This document shows positions 9,233 to 34,871 of a stretch of 37,533 bases of DNA, one piece after another. Source of the DNA: Oceanobacillus luteolus (GTDB lineage Bacteria; Bacillota; Bacilli; Bacillales; Amphibacillaceae); contig NZ_JAMBON010000035.1 in NCBI RefSeq assembly GCF_023715655.1, positions 1 to 37,533 of the forward strand. Direction: 5' to 3'. The position numbers were made by a program, and so were the translations under genes. A model generated the notes under the pieces. The model did not search any database. It was not told the DNA's origin and was given only the letters and a program-made list of their open reading frames with translations. The stretch's first letter is position 1. Each line of letters starts with the position of its first letter.

Positions 9233-10240
9233 TTATATTGATTCCACTTTCGCTGCAACTTCACGTGGGCTCAATAGTTGGAACGAACGAAAACGCTCAG
9301 CTTCTCTTCGAATCGGAGTATGCAATATAAATTCATCGATATGATAGAGATGTTGAAATCGAATTAGCTCCCCTTTCACATATTCTGGTGTTCCAGCTAT
9401 GATATTCGCTGCCTTTTCTTGTACTTCAAAAGGGCCTTCTGCTTGTTTCTCATATGCCAAAACTTGCTCTTCCGATTGAACGGTCAATGTCCGGCCGTCA
9501 TGAAGATGAAGGCTGAATAATTTATGCTCCGCCGCTAATTTTTCTGCTTCGTCTTGGGTAGGTGCTGCAAGGACTGCTAAAGAGAAAATAAACTTCCCTT
9601 CTCTGAAATTCGATTTAAAGTTATGAACTGTTTCATGAAGTACTTTATCGTCATTATTTAAAAATCCTGCGTAAACAAAATTAACTCTTAAATCAGCAGC
9701 AAATTTGGCACTATTAACACTTCCTCCAAGTAAATAAATATCCGGTTTCTCATCTGGCCTTGGTAAAGCTTGAATACCTGCTAATGGATGGTCATGCTCA
9801 ACCGTTTCATCTATCAATTGTTTTAGAAATGTGAAGCGCTCATTGAAATCATTTTTATTATTTGATTCACCATTTTGTAATGCTTTCGTAGACAAAGGTA
9901 ATCCACCAGGAGCCTTCCCAATTCCTAGATCTACTCTTCCAGGAGCGAGAGTTGATAAAACATTAAAGTTTTCGGCAACTTTATAAGGACTATAATGTTG
10001 TAGCATCACACCACCAGAACCAACTTGAATCGTATTTGTTTGTGCTAACAAATGCGAAATTAATACTTCTGGTGAAGAACCTGCTACCTGCTCCATGTTG
10101 TGATGCTCCGAAACCCAGAAACGGGAGTACCCCCATTCTTCAGCTCTTTTTGCCAGTTGTATCGTATGCTGAAATGCGTCAGCTGCTGTTTTTCCATTAA
10201 AAATTGGACTTTGATCAAGAATCCCAAGTTTTAAGCTCAT
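9233..10240 (-). CDS. Luciferase-like (LLM class) flavin monooxygenase, MsnO8-type
   Basis: The 335-residue protein is a single-component-type bacterial luciferase homologue. Segments diagnostic of this group are LKLGILDQSPI at the start, WVSEHHNMEQVAGSSPEVL, VGSGGVMLQHYSPYKVAE and LAPGRVDLGIGKAPGG. It should use reduced flavin and oxygen on a small organic substrate. It belongs to a different luciferase subfamily from the NtaA-type enzyme at the operon's end, so the operon encodes two distinct flavin monooxygenases. The start is the ATG at 10240 behind GGGGGAG; the frame is open further upstream but runs into the leader hairpin. The FMN reductase at 10950 is a plausible partner. Confidence 0.85.
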   Translation of the reverse strand: MSLKLGILDQSPIFNGKTAADAFQHTIQLAKRAEEWGYSRFWVSEHHNMEQVAGSSPEVLISHLLAQTNTIQVGSGGVMLQHYSPYKVAENFNVLSTLAPGRVDLGIGKAPGGLPLSTKALQNGESNNKNDFNERFTFLKQLIDETVEHDHPLAGIQALPRPDEKPDIYLLGGSVNSAKFAADLRVNFVYAGFLNNDDKVLHETVHNFKSNFREGKFIFSLAVLAAPTQDEAEKLAAEHKLFSLHLHDGRTLTVQSEEQVLAYEKQAEGPFEVQEKAANIIAGTPEYVKGELIRFQHLYHIDEFILHTPIRREAERFRSFQLLSPREVAAKVESI

Positions 10241-10272: not shown

Positions 10273-10330
10273 AAAGGCAGCTTTCCATTCAATAATGAAT
10301 GGAAAGCTGCCTTTAGTTGTCTAATCGGCA
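10273..10330 (-). promoter_or_regulatory. Palindromic element overlapping a terminator-like hairpin, first S-box operon
   Basis: On the minus strand a 23-nt imperfect palindrome (10308-10330) has arms TGCC and TTAG pairing with CTAA and GGCA around an ACAA loop. Its 3' arm is also the start of a perfect 19-bp hairpin (10273-10314, loop TTAT) followed by a T-rich run, so the two structures are mutually exclusive. It lies between the yezD-like gene and the luciferase-like gene. The same 23 bases occur at 16142-16164 in the other S-box leader. The structure is seen in the sequence; a regulatory role is inferred. Confidence 0.6.
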
Positions 10331-10353
10331 TGCTTCATTTCGTTTGATGATTC

Positions 10354-10500
10354 TTACCTTGTAGTTTGGTAACGTAATTTTTCAGTTGTTTCTATTTGTG
10401 TAATTTCATCGTCATGAACAGTTATGATTAAGGATCCAAATTTAAGTTTTTTCAATTCGGTTACGATGTCTAAGATCTTTTTGTCAGTTACATTTGCCAT
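10354..10500 (-). CDS. yezD: YezD-like small protein (DUF2292)
   Basis: A 48-residue ORF begins MANVTDKKILDIV and continues with the family-like core FGSLIITVHDDEITQIETTEK. The ATG at 10500 has a near-perfect AAAGGAGGAG about 6 nt upstream, which makes translation convincing despite the size. I recognise the pattern of the YezD/DUF2292 family, tiny bacterial proteins of unknown function often found beside sulfur assimilation genes. It is the first gene after the SAM riboswitch and its terminator, and it is separated from the rest of the operon by a second hairpin. It should therefore respond to SAM. The function is unknown; small charged proteins of this type could be regulators or adaptors. 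Confidence 0.8.
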   Translation of the reverse strand: MANVTDKKILDIVTELKKLKFGSLIITVHDDEITQIETTEKLRYQTTR

Positions 10501-10539
10501 AGAATCTCCTCCTTTATCAAAATATTATATAGAAAATTC

Positions 10540-10692
10540 AAAAAACCTCTTCTATACAAATAAGAAGAGGTTTTCATTTATATCATTCTCTTCTTATCTG
10601 CCAGTCACATCGACTTGCTGGAATTGGCACGGTGCTATAAAAGTCCGTTGCCGAGGTTTCAAAGGGCCAGTCCCTCCACCTCTCTGGATAAG
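10540..10692 (-). ncRNA. SAM-I (S-box) riboswitch with terminator, first operon
   Basis: The minus strand from 10692 carries the S-box conserved core: CTTATCCAGAGAGGTGGAGG, ACTGGCCC, GAAACCTCGGCAAC, GTGCCAATTCC and the closing P1 strand GATAAG at 10593-10598. An intrinsic terminator follows (AACCTCTTCT with AGAAGAGGTT, then a T run, ending near 10540). When SAM binds, P1 forms and the terminator is free to stop transcription, so the operon is expressed when SAM is low. The next gene is the yezD-like ORF. Confidence 0.96.
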
Positions 10693-10782
10693 AAATACTT
10701 TATTTAGTTTTTTATGTTGTAAGTAGTACTTTGTTAAAGCTTATAAATCTTTGAGAATAATACCTTTATTCTAATACTGTAC

Positions 10783-10811
10783 ATCTTAGCATCCCTTTAT
10801 TATCTTGTCAA
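10783..10811 (-). promoter_or_regulatory. SigA-type promoter of the first S-box operon
   Basis: TTGACA (10806-10811), a 17-nt spacer and TAAGAT (10783-10788) on the minus strand. It lies about 90 nt upstream of the riboswitch, and the same -35, spacer length and TAAGATGTA block occur in front of the second S-box leader. Confidence 0.8.
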
Positions 10812-10949
10812 GGAAAATTCAGGGAATTTTTTATAAATTCCGATGTTAGACGTTAATGCTTATAAATATGGCCACAACATGTTCAAATTGATAATATTTC
10901 CTTAAGTAGCTCATAATCAGAAGCCTATTGCTACTTTCAGAAATAGTAT

Positions 10950-11522
10950 TTAATAATGACTTGCACTTACTACATCTTTTTCTGATATAACTGGCACATC
11001 AACTGAAATCTTCCTCATAAAATAATTAAGCTGCTTCTTCGTTCGATTTAACATAACATTATCAATTATAACTTCACTGCCAGTCTTGCTTATTTCACTA
11101 TCTTGGAAATATAGTCCTTTTAAGCTATGTGCTTTTACTGTTGCCAGTAGAGGCTTCAATGCATAATCGAGCGCGAGTAAATGCGATGAACTGCCTCCTG
11201 TCATCACCGGTAGTACAAAAGTATCTTGTAAAACATCTTGGGGCAGCAGATCAAACAGTGCTTTTAATACGCCGGAATATGAAGCCTTGTATACAGGGGA
11301 TCCAACGATAACACCATCCGCTTTTTGCAGTTCCACAGAAATCTCTTTTATCTTAGAACTGTTGAAGTTTGCAAAAAGCAGGTCCTCTGCATCGAAATCT
11401 TTTACAGAAACATGGTGAACAGAAAATCCTTCCTGCATAGCGAGGTCTCCTAAATAATAAAGAATGCGTTCTGATCTCGATAACGAAGATGGACTTCCAG
11501 AAACAATGACAATTCTCCCCAT
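10950..11522 (-). CDS. NADPH-dependent FMN reductase (SsuE-like)
   Basis: The 190-residue flavodoxin-fold reductase has the FMN phosphate loop GSPSSLSRS at residues 9-17 and the family segment VIVGSPVYKASYSGVLKALFDLLP. Such enzymes use NADPH to make free reduced FMN for two-component monooxygenases. I start at the ATG at 11522, which has AAAGGGG about 7 nt upstream; the earlier in-frame starts lie inside that site. It is the last gene of the yitJ-metE operon. The nearest flavin monooxygenases are in the neighbouring S-box operon, so it probably serves them. An azoreductase- or sulfonate-linked role is possible. Confidence 0.85.
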   Translation of the reverse strand: MGRIVIVSGSPSSLSRSERILYYLGDLAMQEGFSVHHVSVKDFDAEDLLFANFNSSKIKEISVELQKADGVIVGSPVYKASYSGVLKALFDLLPQDVLQDTFVLPVMTGGSSSHLLALDYALKPLLATVKAHSLKGLYFQDSEISKTGSEVIIDNVMLNRTKKQLNYFMRKISVDVPVISEKDVVSASHY

Positions 11523-11543
11523 AGTCATTCCCCTTTCCAATTT

Positions 11544-11819
11544 TTAATGGATGCCCTTCAAGGCGGTGTTTTCCAGTGCTTTCTCCAAATGTTCAATCCC
11601 AACTTCTGTTACCGCTTCATATACATTCCCTTGACCAATCTCGACAACTGGTACATGGCGCACCCCATACTTAGCTTGTAAAATATCTCTCCTGTCATCC
11701 TTTTCCGTTACATCTATCGTTTGGAAAGCTAAACCTTTTTCGTGTAGATATGTTTTTACTTCCGTGCAATAACTGCAACCTTGTTTGGACCAAACTACAA
11801 TTGATAGATTATTTGCCAA
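11544..11819 (-). CDS. Glutaredoxin-like protein
   Basis: The 91-residue thioredoxin-fold protein has the active-site motif GCSYC (C15 and C18), the cis-proline segment VRHVPVVEIG and a C-terminal helix, all typical of NrdH/glutaredoxin-like proteins. I prefer the TTG at 11819, which gives MANNLSIVVWSK, because GAGGTGG is well placed upstream; the ATG at 11846 would add nine residues that contain the binding site. It lies between metE and the FMN reductase under SAM control. It may keep MetE or homocysteine-handling thiols reduced, since MetE is sensitive to oxidative thiolation in other bacteria. That role is inferred. Confidence 0.8.
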   Translation of the reverse strand: MANNLSIVVWSKQGCSYCTEVKTYLHEKGLAFQTIDVTEKDDRRDILQAKYGVRHVPVVEIGQGNVYEAVTEVGIEHLEKALENTALKGIH

Positions 11820-11850
11820 CGTAGTCTTCCACCTCTCCCTAAGCATAAAT

Positions 11851-14133
11851 TTATATTGTTACTTTTACTTGACGTGCCTCTTTTGCAGCTTGCACCATTA
11901 CTTCCAATGCTGCTACAGTTTCTTCTTCTTTGCGTGTTTTCAGTCCGCAATCTGGATTAACCCAAAACTGCTTTGGTGAAATGGTTTCTAATGCCCGGTC
12001 AATATTTTGTTTTATTTCATTGACAGATGGAACCCTTGGACTATGAATATCATAAACACCGAGTCCAATCCCTTTTCTGTACGTGTTTTCTTCGAAAGTT
12101 GAAACGATCTCTCCGTGACTTCTCGATGACTCAATCGAAATTACATCAGCATCAAGTGCATCAATACAATCAAAAATATCCTCGAAGTTCGAATAGCACA
12201 TATGGGTATGAATTTGTGTATCTGCATCAACGCTTGCAGTAGCTAAACGGAATGCATATGCAGATACTTTTAGATATTCTTCCCATTTGGCCCTGTCTAG
12301 TGGCAACCCTTCACGTAAAGCAGGCTCATCTACTTGAATGATTTTTATGCCATTCTTTTCTAATGCAACAACTTCTTTTTGAAGAGCCAATGCAATCTGC
12401 TTCATCGTTTCATAACGATGACTTGCATCGTGAACGAATGACCAGTTCAAGATCGTTACCGGTCCAGTCAGCATTCCTTTTACAGGACGATCGGTCAATG
12501 ATTGTGCATAAACACTTTCTTTTACCGTAATTGGTTTTTCCCAAGATACATCACCGATAATTAGCGGCGGTTTCACATAACGTGAGCCGTAAGATTGAAC
12601 ATACCCATTTTCCGTTACAATAAATCCGTTAAATTTATCACCAAAATATTCAACCATGTCATTACGTTCGAACTCACCATGGACAAGAACGTCAAGATCC
12701 AATTGTTCTTGGATATCAATCCAGCGTTTAATATTATCCTTTACAAATTTTTCATATTGTTGATCTGTAATTTCACCTTTACGCCATTTCGCACGGGTAC
12801 TTCTTACTTCTTTTGTTTGTGGTAAGCTACCAATCGTAGTTGTCGGTAGTAATGGTAAATTCAAACATTCTTCTTGAAGTTTTGAGCGTTCTTCAAAAGA
12901 TACATTCCGTTTTGCATCTTCTGGCGTCAGATTTTTTATTTCCTCGTGTACTTTGTCATTTGAACGATAGTTTGCTTGTAAATTATTCCGTTCGGTAATT
13001 GATTTCTGAATTTCTGTCTCGATTGCTGCTCTACCTTGTTGCAATCCTTTCGTCAAAATTACAATTTCTTCTAGCTTCTCATCCGCAAATGATAGGCCCC
13101 CAAGAACTATCGGATCAATCTTTTGTTCCAGCTTTTTCGTGATTGGAACGTGAAGTAAGGATGATGACGGCTGAACGATTAGCTGATCTTCATTTATAAA
13201 TTGCTTAATTGTTTCTAAAAGCGTCAATTTTTCTCCAAGCTTTGCCCGCCATACATTGCGACCGTCGACAATGCCTGCAGCGAGTACTTTATCTTTCGGA
13301 AATCCATATTCTTGCAATAAACTTAGTGAATCTCCGTGCACGAAATCAAGTCCTATCCCCTTTACCGGTAAATTAACAATCGTTTCATAATCGGATACTT
13401 TTTCAAAATAGGTTTGAAATATAATGTTAATCTCTGGAACTTCTTCGGCAAAAGTTTGATATACTTTTTGCGCTGCTGCCAAAACATTTTCAGCCACATC
13501 GGTAACGAAAATCGGCTCATCAATTTGCACCCACGTAGCACCGGCATCGACCAGTTCTTTCAGAACCTGAACATATAATGGAAGAAATGTATCCACCAGT
13601 TCGCTAAATTGACTTTCTTCGTATCCTTTTGAAATCTTTAAATAAGTGATTGGTCCTAAAATAACAGCTTTTCCATCAATCCCTAGTTTCCCTTTCGCTT
13701 CGTTATAATAGTTGAGTGCTCGATTTTCCGCTAATGTTGGTGTTACATCATTTAATTCCGGAACGATATAATGATAATTTGTATTGAACCATTTAGTCAT
13801 TTCCGACGCAACGGCATCATCGGCACCCCGTGCAATTGCAAAGTAAGTGTCCAGGTCCACTTTACCTCCCGTATAATGGAAACGTTTTGGCACAACTCCA
13901 AAGGTTGCTGATGTATCAAGTACCTGATCATATAGTGAAAAATCTCCAACAGGAATGAGATCAATTCCTATTTCCTTTTGCTTCTTTAAATGGTGAAGTC
14001 GAACTTCTCCTGTTTTTTCCAATAGTTCCGCTTCTGTGATATCACCATTCCAGTAGCTTTCAAGTGCCTTTTTCCATTCCCTGTTTTCCCCGATTCGTGG
14101 ATAGCCTAAATTTGAACTTTTGATCTTCGACAC
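11851..14133 (-). CDS. metE: Cobalamin-independent methionine synthase
   Basis: The 760-residue protein transfers the methyl group of 5-methyltetrahydropteroyl-triglutamate to homocysteine. The four zinc ligands known for E. coli MetE appear at a constant offset: H644 and C646 (in HTHMCYSNF), E668 and C729 (in PDCGLKTR). The N-terminal [19 protein letters not shown] is the usual opening. The start is a GTG at 14133 with GGAGG 7 nt upstream; the overlapping ATG is out of frame. The gene lies 85 nt after yitJ, whose reductase half makes the methyl donor. Confidence 0.97.
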
Positions 14134-14218
14134 ATTAATTCCTCCAATTTTTTATATCTTTTCTCGCCATGAAGCGATTTTTATTAGTTTGGTTTGTACA
14201 ATCAACGGTTTATGATGT

Positions 14219-16054
14219 CTAATATGCAACTTTTTCCAATACCTTCGTTTTTTCGCGGATGTACTCGACAAGTTCGATTGTAATGTCATAGCGCATAAAT
14301 GGTGTAATCAAATAAATTCCATTAAAGTGTTCCAGCGCTGTATCGATTAAATCTTTTGATATCGCAATGCTCTCAGCAGTTGATTGTGCTTTATCTCCTG
14401 CCACTTTTCTCATTCGTTCACGTACTTCATCCGTCAGCTTGATTCCCGGCACTTCATTATGGAGAAACTCAGCATTTCTGGAAGTAGTAACCGGCATAAT
14501 TCCTAAGAAAATCGGAATGTCAAAAATAGCTGTTTCCTTTTTTATTTCAATTATTTTTTCTGTACTATAAACCGGTTGCGTTAAAATATAATCCGCACCA
14601 CTCGAAATTTTCCTTTCCAATCGTTGTACTGCTTTCTTCAGATTAGCTACGTTCGGATTAAATGCTGCGGCAACACTGAAGTCGGTTTTTTCTCTTAATG
14701 ATTTTCCTGAAAATGAAATTCCTTTATTTCCTTTTTTGATTAGTTCGATCAATTGAAACGAATTGACATCAAATACCGAAGTCGCGCCGGGGAAGTCACC
14801 AATTTTCGTTGGATCTCCGGTAATCACCAGCATTTCCGTAATACCGAGAGTATGCAATCCCATTAAGTGTGACTGTAGTCCAATTAAATTACGGTCACGG
14901 CAAGTTAAGTGAACGAGTGGTCGAATACCTTGTTCTATTAATAGCTTTGCAACGGCAATATTGCTGATTCTCGGTGTGGCAAGGGAATTGTCCGCAAGCG
15001 TAATCGCATCAGCTCCTGCCTGCTTTAACGCTTTTGCCGCCTCTATATATCCAGTCATTTCTAAATGTTTCGGGGCATCTAGTTCAACGACAACTGTATG
15101 GCGTTCTATCGCAAGTTCTGGAATTGTTTTTCCTACTCGGATTCTTTCAGTTAAAAAATTTCCTTCTTCTGGTTTCTTCACATTTTTTTGTTCCAGTGGT
15201 ACTAAACCTTGAATTCCCTCAGTTAACGCACGGATATGTTCCGGCGTTGTACCGCAACAACCACCTATTAGCCGAACACCTTGATCTCGTAAATCACTGG
15301 CACAAGTTTTAAAGTAATCCGGTTTATTTTCATAAAACAACACACCATCACGATAAGCGGGCAGACTCGCATTTGGATAAGCTGCTAAGTATGCATGTTC
15401 ATGAAGTGGAACCGACTCAAGCGATCTAACCATTTGTGATGGACCAAGCCGACAATTTGTACCGACAATATCAGCACCAAGACTTTCTAATTCTTTTAAT
15501 GCATCTGCCAATGCCAAACCATTTTCAATCACACCTGGTTCATGCATGGATACATTCGCTATAATCGGTAAATCTGTTTCTTCTCTGGCAATTTTTAAAA
15601 CAGTCCTTAATTCATCCAAGCTGTAATACGTTTCTAAAATCAGACCATCTACACCTTCCAGTAATAAACAATATAATTGCTCTCTAAAACTACGTTTAAT
15701 TTCATCCTCCGTTACGGTTAACGTTTGCCCCCCGTGAATCCCTCCTATACTTCCTAAAACATAGACTTTATTGTTACTCGCTTTCCTAGCGATTTGAACA
15801 GCTCTTTGATTAATTTTTTTCACTTGTTCTTCCAATCCATAACGTGCCAGTTTAATATAATTGGCACCATAGGTGTTCGTTTGTATGATATTAGCCCCTG
15901 CATTGATGTACGCTTCATGAATTGTTTGGATTTGTTCTGGTTGCGTCAGATTCAATTCCTCAAAGCTACGATCTACCCCATTTGAATATAAAATCGTTCC
16001 CATTGCCCCATCAGCAATTAAAATCCGTTCTTTCAAGTCTGTTAAAAGAGTCAA
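14219..16054 (-). CDS. yitJ: Bifunctional homocysteine S-methyltransferase / 5,10-methylenetetrahydrofolate reductase (YitJ)
   Basis: This 611-residue fusion matches B. subtilis YitJ. Residues 1-285 form a Zn-dependent homocysteine methyltransferase with ligands C201 (VGTNC) and C266-C267 (IGGCCGTT). From about residue 310 a MetF-type flavoprotein domain follows (VVELDAPKHLEMTG, ITGDPTKIGDFPG, ADYILTQPVYSTEKI). The second half makes 5-methyl-THF for MetE, encoded just downstream; the first half can remethylate homocysteine from other donors. The start is a TTG at 16054 with GGGGGTG 8 nt upstream. It is the first large gene after the second SAM riboswitch, as in Bacillus. Confidence 0.95.
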   Translation of the reverse strand: MTLLTDLKERILIADGAMGTILYSNGVDRSFEELNLTQPEQIQTIHEAYINAGANIIQTNTYGANYIKLARYGLEEQVKKINQRAVQIARKASNNKVYVLGSIGGIHGGQTLTVTEDEIKRSFREQLYCLLLEGVDGLILETYYSLDELRTVLKIAREETDLPIIANVSMHEPGVIENGLALADALKELESLGADIVGTNCRLGPSQMVRSLESVPLHEHAYLAAYPNASLPAYRDGVLFYENKPDYFKTCASDLRDQGVRLIGGCCGTTPEHIRALTEGIQGLVPLEQKNVKKPEEGNFLTERIRVGKTIPELAIERHTVVVELDAPKHLEMTGYIEAAKALKQAGADAITLADNSLATPRISNIAVAKLLIEQGIRPLVHLTCRDRNLIGLQSHLMGLHTLGITEMLVITGDPTKIGDFPGATSVFDVNSFQLIELIKKGNKGISFSGKSLREKTDFSVAAAFNPNVANLKKAVQRLERKISSGADYILTQPVYSTEKIIEIKKETAIFDIPIFLGIMPVTTSRNAEFLHNEVPGIKLTDEVRERMRKVAGDKAQSTAESIAISKDLIDTALEHFNGIYLITPFMRYDITIELVEYIREKTKVLEKVAY

Positions 16055-16096
16055 AAATTATGCACCCCCAAGTTTGCTAACATTGAAAAACAAAAT

Positions 16097-16164
16097 AGGC
16101 ATCTAACAGTTTTCCGAATCAATACCGGAAAAACTGTTAGATGCCTTTAGTTGTCTAATCGGCA
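16097..16164 (-). promoter_or_regulatory. Palindromic element overlapping a terminator-like hairpin, second S-box operon
   Basis: The 23-nt palindrome at 16142-16164 is identical to that at 10308-10330. It overlaps the 5' arm of a 20-bp hairpin with one bulged T (16097-16146), followed by ATTTTGTTTTT. The hairpin stem (AGGCATCTAACAG outward) differs from the one in the first operon, while the overlap of four to seven bases is kept. It lies between the riboswitch terminator and the yitJ ribosome binding site. Confidence 0.6.
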
Positions 16165-16313: not shown

Positions 16314-16468
16314 AAAAAACCTCTTCCTATGCAAATAAGAAGAGGTTGGATTCATCCGTTCATTCTCTTCTTATCTTCAAAGCACTTGGCTTACTGGAAT
16401 TGGCACAGTACTGATTCAGTCTGTTGCCGAGGCTTCAACGGGCCAGTCCCTTCACCTCTCTGGATAAG
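16314..16468 (-). ncRNA. SAM-I (S-box) riboswitch with terminator, yitJ-metE operon
   Basis: The minus strand from 16468 shows CTTATCCAGAGAGGTGAAGG, ACTGGCCC, GAAGCCTCGGCAAC, GTGCCAATTCC and the P1 closing strand GATAAG (16370-16375). A terminator follows (AACCTCTTC with GAAGAGGTT, then a T run). The aptamer and terminator closely resemble the first copy, with compensated differences in the variable arms. Confidence 0.96.
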
Positions 16469-16498
16469 AAATATAACTAGATATTAAATTGTAAATAC

Positions 16499-21887: not shown

Positions 21888-21908
21888 CTCATGATTTTTT
21901 TGTATCTA

Positions 21909-22053
21909 GTCTTTCCTTTTGTGCAATAAGTCACCTTATTGTTTTATAGAAAGACATACGACTGAGATACGCAATCGGGAGGCATCCGCCGAACACTTCG
22001 ATAAACCTCCACCTCGTCAGCTATTTTATTTCCGTCCAAAATAGCTCTGGCGC
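21909..22053 (-). ncRNA. glmS ribozyme
   Basis: The minus strand shows the conserved cleavage-site core AGCGCCAGAGCTATTTTGG, then AGCTGACGAGGTGGAGG, TTATCGAAG, GTTCGGCGGATGCCTCCCG and the distal P4 helix (GTCTTTC with GAAAGAC) capped by an extra hairpin. Cleavage is expected just before the G at 22053. Glucosamine-6-phosphate acts as cofactor, so excess product destroys the glmS message. Confidence 0.97.
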
Positions 22054-22173
22054 TTTATGATCAATAGATTTCAGGGAATTTCCACCTGAATGACTCTTAA
22101 AAAAAGAGTATAGTATATGGTATGCAAAAGTAATATATTGGTTATCTCATACTCTTATTACATACAAAGTTGT

Positions 22174-34118: not shown

Positions 34119-34277
34119 AGCACCGTGTTTTACCGGTGCTTGACTTCAGGAAGGTAGATGGAGATGTGACAGTCTTATCTCAGTTTTATCTCCAAATTTA
34201 TATACACAACCTCATAGTCAAGCTATTTACGGTAGCTTGGTAGAAACTTTCGGGCCATATCCCCAATATTATACGAG
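34119..34277 (-). ncRNA. Guanine riboswitch with terminator, nupNOPQ leader
   Basis: The aptamer (34210-34277) reads TATAATATTGGGGATATGGCC, AGTTTCTACCAAGC, CCGTAAATAGCTTGACTATGAG on the minus strand. The discriminating base before UAUG is C (GACTATG), the guanine type rather than the adenine type. A terminator follows (AGCACCG with CGGTGCT and seven T, 34119-34140). Guanine or hypoxanthine should shut the operon off. Confidence 0.95.
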
Positions 34278-34303
34278 AATGTTTATTTAATTTTTACTAA
34301 CTT

Positions 34304-34621: not shown

Positions 34622-34871
34622 TATTGGAACGTTGATAAAGGATCAGTAAGTAGTCCCTGCTATGAAAGAGAGTGGAATTTATTAGCTGAAAGATTCCATC
34701 GTAGACAGCCTGCCGAACCTACCTTTAGAGTCCCATGCCAAAACATGGGCGCCGAACAAGCGTTATTGTTTAAGTGGAATGTGCACAGATTTTGTGCGCC
34801 ATTCAAGTAATGGTGGTACCGCGGAAGCAAGCCCTTTCGTCCTTATGCTTATAGGATGAATGGGCTTTTTT
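34622..34871 (+). ncRNA. Proline T-box leader
   Basis: The T-box sequence ATGGTGGTACCGCGG is at about 34810-34824, followed by an intrinsic terminator (AGCCC and CGTCCT paired with AGGATG and GGGCT, then T6, 34829-34871). In Stem I the specifier position GAACCTAC at 34715-34722 shows CCT, a proline codon, preceded by the usual AGTA motif near 34638. Uncharged tRNA-Pro should therefore open proBA. Confidence 0.93.

Follow-up and report, generated by a model that had tools for sequence, protein, structure and literature searches.

Two sulfur operons and the palindrome in their leaders

The stretch of DNA analysed here, hereafter the window, comprises positions 1 to 37,533 of contig NZ_JAMBON010000035.1 of Oceanobacillus luteolus (37,533 nucleotides, nt), and carries on its minus strand two sulfur operons, each headed by a leader with an S-adenosylmethionine (SAM) riboswitch (S-box, or SAM-I). 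The subject of this study is a 23-nt hairpin shared by both leaders, together with its candidate partner, the small DUF2292 protein YezD. In operon 1, an Rfam scan places the riboswitch aptamer at 10591-10694; it is followed by an S-box terminator hairpin at approximately 10544-10572 (read by eye) and by yezD (10354-10500), which encodes a 48-residue DUF2292 protein (Pfam and NCBIfam matches) related to OscA and is the gene of our proposed factor. yezD ends 23 nt before the hairpin, and this order of S-box terminator, yezD and palindrome refines that of the first-pass annotation, which had been made from the sequence alone. By family match, the first gene past the switch (9233-10240) encodes an MsnO8-family luciferase-like monooxygenase, and the genes after it match the GNAT, amidohydrolase, MetQ, MetN and NtaA/DmoA families. 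In operon 2, the aptamer (16368-16470, Rfam scan) and its terminator (16318-16347, terminator scan) precede a bifunctional homocysteine S-methyltransferase/methylenetetrahydrofolate reductase gene of the yitJ type (14219-16054) and metE (11851-14133), both assigned by family match. No DUF2292 gene was seen by eye in leader 2, and the contig has a single place matching the DUF2292 model PF10055.

The palindrome, TGCCGATTAGACAACTAAAGGCA, is present in two exact copies on the minus strand (10308-10330 in operon 1 and 16142-16164 in operon 2), both downstream of the SAM aptamers, just as the first-pass annotation had reported. Each is a putative antiterminator hairpin, supported by folding and by covariance model R2 (see below). 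It consists of a 4-bp outer stem (TGCC/GGCA), a GA/A internal loop, a 4-bp inner stem (TTAG/CTAA) and an ACAA apical loop; the lone 23-mer folds as ((((..((((....)))).)))) at -6.2 kcal/mol (z -3.28). The window contains no further copy at up to 3 mismatches, and 100 dinucleotide shuffles gave none.

In both leaders, folding predicts a long terminator that begins in the 3′ arm of the hairpin. The terminator of leader 1 spans 10273-10314 on the minus strand, with a T-rich tail to about 10261, and includes the outer 3′ arm of the hairpin along with part of its inner arm; that of leader 2 spans approximately 16097-16146 on the same strand, also followed by a T-rich tail, and takes the outer arm. 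The full hairpin and the full terminator are thus mutually exclusive, and the two terminator stems differ in sequence, both as had been claimed for these leaders; the geometry previously likened to the ribonucleic antiterminator (RAT) sites of BglG-type systems fits this overlap. At -32.0 and -31.3 kcal/mol in leaders 1 and 2, respectively, the terminators are about 25 kcal/mol more stable than the hairpin and should therefore win unaided. A simple consensus scan found the terminator of leader 1 and missed that of leader 2, because the stem of the latter is interrupted and its T-rich tail is broken by other bases; the scan counted 5 terminators in all, no excess over shuffles (4.5).

The leader 2 hairpin and terminator together (16089-16163, minus strand) give a weak full-length match to Rfam sau-19, a Staphylococcus small RNA (30.7 of 80 bits, E 0.09), which is perhaps the same element in Staphylococcus. 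The window also contains an ordinary glmS ribozyme (21899-22065, minus strand), an ordinary purine riboswitch (34195-34296, minus strand) and, under the gathering score, a T-box leader (34623-34847, plus strand; 74.4 of 93 bits, E 2e-14).

A covarying hairpin and the genes behind it

The source genome has 17 S-boxes. The 21-nt core of the palindrome, with up to 3 mismatches, occurs at four places in this genome, every one of them after an S-box, and the variant at C123 (GATTCGACAACGAAAGG) carries a compensating change of the inner stem from TTAG/CTAA to TTCG/CGAA. Model R2 adds a fifth element 260 nt past the copy at C128, and the next match has an E value of 0.22. The five elements are spread over 4 of the 17 S-box leaders, in two of which yezD precedes the hairpin. 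These are the only strong copies and all lie in S-box leaders, so that the palindrome does not behave in this genome as a random or mobile repeat.

A pattern search of 159 genomes of the same family, with the reversed pattern as a control, gave 38 matches in 28 genomes as against 1 for the control. At these loci the hairpin adjoins yezD or, elsewhere, stands before other sulfur genes. A structure-based regular expression then led to diverged hairpins 3′ of DUF2292 genes. It was next applied to 80 loci, those ranking highest among 377 matches to DUF2292 in named genomes: in the interval 90-320 nt after the DUF2292 start it matched 22 times in 18.35 kb (21 of the 80 loci), and in the remaining 470 kb, both strands included, 15 times; shuffles give an expectation of 0.1. 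Covariance model R2, built from 46 hairpins, gives 56 matches in these loci at E ≤1, all on the DUF2292 strand, with at least one match in 44 of the 80. Thirty-nine of the matches (36 loci) lie just 3′ of the DUF2292 gene, 7 lie just 5′ and 10 elsewhere. Among the 36 loci with a 3′ hairpin, 14 are absent from the R2 seed (a few are weak matches), including records of Alcanivorax, Cellvibrionales and Akkermansiaceae. Hairpins 3′ of DUF2292 genes are found in records named Proteobacteria, Verrucomicrobia, Actinobacteria, Clostridia and Fibrobacter, and an R2 match at E ≤0.05, doubtful in some cases, is present in all 25 named DUF2292 genomes searched whole.

Seven of the eight base pairs change on both sides, and 96.5% of the alignment cells are paired, compared to 24-52% when the partner is slid. 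It should be noted that the seed rows were partly chosen by the structure expression, and thus by pairing, which makes the bias in strand and position the cleaner evidence. The GA/A internal loop and an apical loop of 4-5 nt, whose length is limited by the expression for some rows, are conserved. The search with the 23-mer and a covariance model proposed in the first-pass annotation thus yields an element that covaries and that precedes sulfur genes also outside S-box leaders. S-boxes accompany 14 of 20 family loci and just one of the 20 element regions taken from other members of the class; outside the family of the source genome, the element is mostly not tied to S-boxes. No Rfam family matches the hairpin at cut-off in the window, in the 20 family loci or in the 20 class regions, with no RAT model run by name. 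A permissive test finds a terminator overlapping the hairpin in 143 of 168 contexts, and in 87 when the arms are shuffled. A second copy of the hairpin lies 5′ of yezD in L033, L039, L040, L110 and L111, and in the first three of these it has no overlapping terminator in this test.

To describe the genes behind the hairpin, 40 regions around matches mostly away from DUF2292 were hand-picked from the family and class lists (some are close relatives). The downstream open reading frame (ORF) was taken as the nearest of at least 140 residues, or else the longest, and was usable in 39 regions; 37 were scanned with Pfam, omitting L279 (a far ORF) and L283 (a duplicate of L280). In two regions (L255 and L282) a DUF2292-like ORF turned out to lie upstream of the element after all. 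Sixteen of the 37 ORFs belong to sulfur-tied families: eight luciferase-like monooxygenases, two Cys/Met pyridoxal phosphate enzymes, three MetN-type proteins with NIL, a TauD, an arylsulfotransferase and an FMN reductase. Another 12 are parts of ATP-binding cassette (ABC) transporters, some followed by luciferase-like genes (by eye). The others comprise a PHO4-type permease, an acyl-CoA dehydrogenase-like protein, two LysR proteins, one member each of conserved family 698, the major facilitator superfamily (MFS) and YheCD, and two ORFs without a Pfam match. Furthermore, in Bacillus spizizenii the element and its terminator (-8.3 and -25.8 kcal/mol, respectively) stand directly before genes read by inspection as ssuBACD, and in Methylobacillus and Methylovorus inspection places the element before a serine acetyltransferase-like gene.

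In Alcanivorax no U run follows the element, and its 3′ arm can instead cover the Shine-Dalgarno region of a sulfate-binding gene; the masking helix is predicted at -15.0 kcal/mol as against -8.7 kcal/mol for the hairpin, and the folds suggest that this is perhaps a translational version. Records of Actinobacteria, Alcanivorax and Verrucomicrobia (L332, L335 and L333) likewise have the element near a start codon with no clear U run, which suggests translational control. L332 has two copies in tandem. In Butyrivibrio (L329-L331), the element is near genes that look on inspection like NifH, radical SAM and CysK genes, perhaps a nitrogenase-like sulfur salvage cluster.

Co-occurrence of the hairpin with DUF2292 in genomes and satellite phages

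The window yezD product matches Pfam DUF2292 with 47.4 bits (gathering score 22), its sole Pfam match. Against the NCBIfam model for the sulfur starvation response protein OscA (NF033785) it scores 38.5 bits, under the cut-off of 85, and is thus a relative rather than an equivalog by that rule. The predicted fold is alpha-beta-beta (predicted local distance difference test score, pLDDT, 85). oscA forms one transcriptional unit with a sulfate-binding protein gene and is overexpressed after chromate; in the available text of these reports its function is called unknown, and a title cited there ties OscA to sulphur starvation (PMC2996968, PMC3596284). Our literature search, over texts available in part, found no link of DUF2292 or OscA to RNA.

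In order to compare the distribution of the hairpin with that of DUF2292, we searched a class sample of 398 genomes (presumably Bacilli, and overlapping the Brevibacillus, Thermoflavimicrobium and Aneurinibacillus genomes) with R2 under strict filters. The element is found in 143 genomes and PF10055 in 157: 136 have both, 7 the element only, 21 PF10055 only and 234 neither (Fisher p 1.7e-73, uncorrected for descent). PF10055 is thus present in 136/143 genomes with the element and in 21/255 of the others. Within the 159 genomes of the family the respective numbers are 44, 1 (a weak element), 2 and 112, and in nine mixed genera there is no element-only genome and one weak PF10055-only genome (stratified Cochran-Mantel-Haenszel p 6.6e-14). 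A control gene, SsuD-like (TIGR03565 at E 1e-50, with only 3 matches above its cut-off), is present in 40 genomes, of which 18 also carry the element (p 0.009). Physical distance bears on these counts: 26 of 71 family elements lie more than 1 kb from PF10055, and of 9 family genomes in which all elements do so, 8 have PF10055. A relaxed DUF2292 search of eight exceptions (the seven element-only genomes and G092) was positive in G391, whose element is immediately preceded on its 5′ side by a DUF2292-like ORF (19.6 bits, Pfam cut-off 22); matches in the remaining seven were weak or absent.

The G391 ORF matched 63 phage records, all of Streptococcus, and all 40 of the matches listed are satellite phages. 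In 15 satellite records hand-picked from these matches (L343-L357), the R2 hairpin lies close behind the stop codon of the DUF2292-like gene, on the same strand, in 12 (E ≤0.03), and no R2 hairpin is found behind the gene in the other 3. Viral contigs (L358-L381) show the hairpin in 22 of 24 loci (E ≤0.21), with one contig ending before the site; these loci represent 19 distinct contexts and are likely to overlap with the 15 records. The phage stems vary in a compensatory manner (CTAG/CTAG, CTGG/CCAG and CTTG/CAAG). Terminators overlapping the hairpin were identified by eye, and two that were folded have -23.6 and -25.4 kcal/mol versus -6.9 and -8.9 kcal/mol for their hairpins. In two records a minor capsid protein is the product of the next annotated gene, which in the rest is unnamed, and no sulfur gene is annotated in the satellite stretches examined. 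The phage proteins align to DUF2292 with an hhalign probability of 96.3 (E 1.9e-9), and 11 of 13 match the Pfam family at E ≤1 (best 6e-6). They belong to PHROG 1551, and 11 of 13 satellite proteins (L343-L357) also match Pfam PBSX_XtrA, a sequence likeness hinting that XtrA of Bacillus prophages may be in the same superfamily as DUF2292. The phage pair separates protein and hairpin from sulfur metabolism and makes our strongest case for an action of the one on the other.

A proposed YezD-dependent antiterminator and its alternatives

The first-pass annotation had proposed that a second factor other than SAM gates both operons, and this finds support: it fits the covariation, the terminator overlap and the sulfur genes served. 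The factor is likely to be encoded within leader 1, by yezD. We consider it likely that a trans-acting RNA antiterminator, most plausibly YezD/OscA (DUF2292), binds the palindrome and that the two window sulfur operons are thereby gated after SAM. At low SAM, RNA polymerase would pass the SAM riboswitch and meet the second gate, where the nascent RNA would first fold the 23-nt hairpin; the more stable terminator would then displace it and transcription would stop. YezD, made from the S-box-controlled gene just ahead of the gate in operon 1, would bind the hairpin, with contacts that we place at the internal (GA/A) and apical loops, and would keep the 3′ arm from the terminator so that the polymerase enters the sulfur operon. 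The hairpin would be the ON state because it retains the 5′ arm of the terminator. The binding, this direction and the signal of YezD are what we infer. YezD would act in cis on its own transcript in operon 1 (a feed-forward) and in trans on yitJ-metE; its trans targets elsewhere would be genes for sulfonate, taurine, methionine and cysteine. In certain phyla, a helix that masks a start site, rather than a terminator, may be what the hairpin competes with. More broadly, DUF2292 proteins (YezD, OscA, the satellite-phage relatives and perhaps XtrA) probably constitute a large unrecognised family of RNA-binding antiterminators of about 50 residues with one 23-nt hairpin target, serving a sulfur-starvation regulon of several phyla at transcription or translation start, as well as the satellite phages' own gene switch.

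Several observations weigh against this proposal. Nothing in YezD itself indicates RNA binding, since its net charge is 0 (mean +1.1 in 21 aligned relatives) and its predicted structure has no significant fold match. Of the 80 DUF2292 loci, only 36 have a hairpin immediately 3′ of the gene (R2, E ≤1). In 21 of the 157 class genomes with PF10055 no element is found at E 0.01, and 6 genomes with the element remain without a convincing DUF2292 after the relaxed search. The clearest of these is L251 (genome G229), where a strong hairpin and terminator precede a helix-turn-helix-like ORF and DUF2292 was not detected. Co-occurrence is partly linkage for the 45 of 71 family elements that lie within 1 kb of PF10055. 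Moreover, the 143 of 168 contexts with terminator overlap are poorly separated from the mean of 131 obtained when arms are permuted among loci, the phage proteins align with DUF2292 over a short stretch of 34 columns and their first member is under the Pfam cut-off, and the translational reading is weakened because the full fold in Alcanivorax keeps the inner stem beside the masking helix.

Some of these points would also suit an unlikely alternative in which the hairpin is bound by something other than YezD, be it a protein or a small RNA, and DUF2292 merely often belongs to the regulon and travels with it. YezD is not basic, G229 has a strong element where no DUF2292 was found, and DUF2292 genes sit in the regulated operons, so that linkage alone yields much of the co-occurrence. 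However, DUF2292 is present in 8 of the 9 genomes whose elements are all unlinked, and the satellite phages keep gene and hairpin together with no sulfur gene annotated in the stretches examined. We regard as quite improbable that the hairpin is a very small riboswitch that senses a sulfur metabolite itself, with DUF2292 merely among its targets: its conserved internal and apical loops, its position, like that of an expression platform, and the sulfur genes downstream would fit, but in phages it precedes capsid or unnamed genes, its presence tracks a protein family, and its 23-nt conserved part is shorter than any aptamer known to us.

Very improbable, in our view, are ordinary terminators that carry a conserved mobile repeat or a ribonuclease or processing site with no switch function. 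The conserved sequence does recur within genomes and the terminator-overlap test alone discriminates weakly, yet the confinement of the strong source-genome copies to S-box leaders, the compensatory stem changes, and the fixed strand and position relative to DUF2292, often with sulfur genes behind, speak otherwise. Finally, a survey of Bacillus methanolicus gave the label PyrR to second elements found behind SAM riboswitches. The leaders that appear as (SAM)-(PyrR) in its available text precede an MFS gene, ssuA1-C1-B1 and metN1-P1-Q1, which are genes of the kinds encountered in the present work (PMC4342826). A genuine PyrR-type site is hardly credible, given that no Rfam PyrR match was obtained in the scanned sources, neither at gathering nor at E ≤1 or 5, and that the element tracks DUF2292; the survey's label may be this element under another name.

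Comparison with known systems

Among known systems, the hairpin resembles the RAT of BglG, SacY and LicT in being a short hairpin with an asymmetric internal loop whose 3′ arm starts an intrinsic terminator, an overlap present in both window leaders. In those systems, binding of the factor to the RAT gives read-through. The present element differs from the RAT as generally described in its sequence and loops, in the sulfur genes served and in its protein of 48 residues, for which Pfam finds DUF2292 and neither the CAT RNA-binding domain nor PRD. Antiterminator and terminator are described as exclusive in such systems in the available text of PMC3369931, which also covers the ANTAR proteins (EutV, NasR and AmiR) and their protein-bound stem-loops, exclusive with a terminator. 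According to the same text, ANTAR targets have two stem-loops with hexanucleotide loops (A1, G4), a pattern absent from our aligned hairpins; the conserved unit here is a single hairpin, its apical loop 4-5 nt long and its internal loop of the GA/A type, and the only Pfam match of the protein is DUF2292. With the S-box, the hairpin shares the window leaders, the pathway and the control of termination, but it is a second, separate gate without an aptamer match: RF00162 matches in the window lie upstream of the hairpin only. If correct, our proposal would explain the second terminator in two S-box operons.

Naville and Gautheret (2010) described a terminator element common in bacilli to the upstream regions of a sulfonate ABC operon and of an unknown gene (PMC2965389). 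This cluster was possibly an earlier sight of the present element, though the available text names neither a factor nor DUF2292. As for OscA of Pseudomonas corrugata, it shares DUF2292 with YezD, and the difference lies in the RNA partner proposed here, the available text of the OscA papers giving no molecular function. For OscA/YezD, so far described in those texts by phenotype only (sulfur starvation and chromate resistance), an RNA partner would supply a mechanism, based on a very small candidate RNA switch protein. It would also imply an RNA-based sulfur regulon across several phyla and, in the satellite-phage version, a new kind of gene control in phage satellites.

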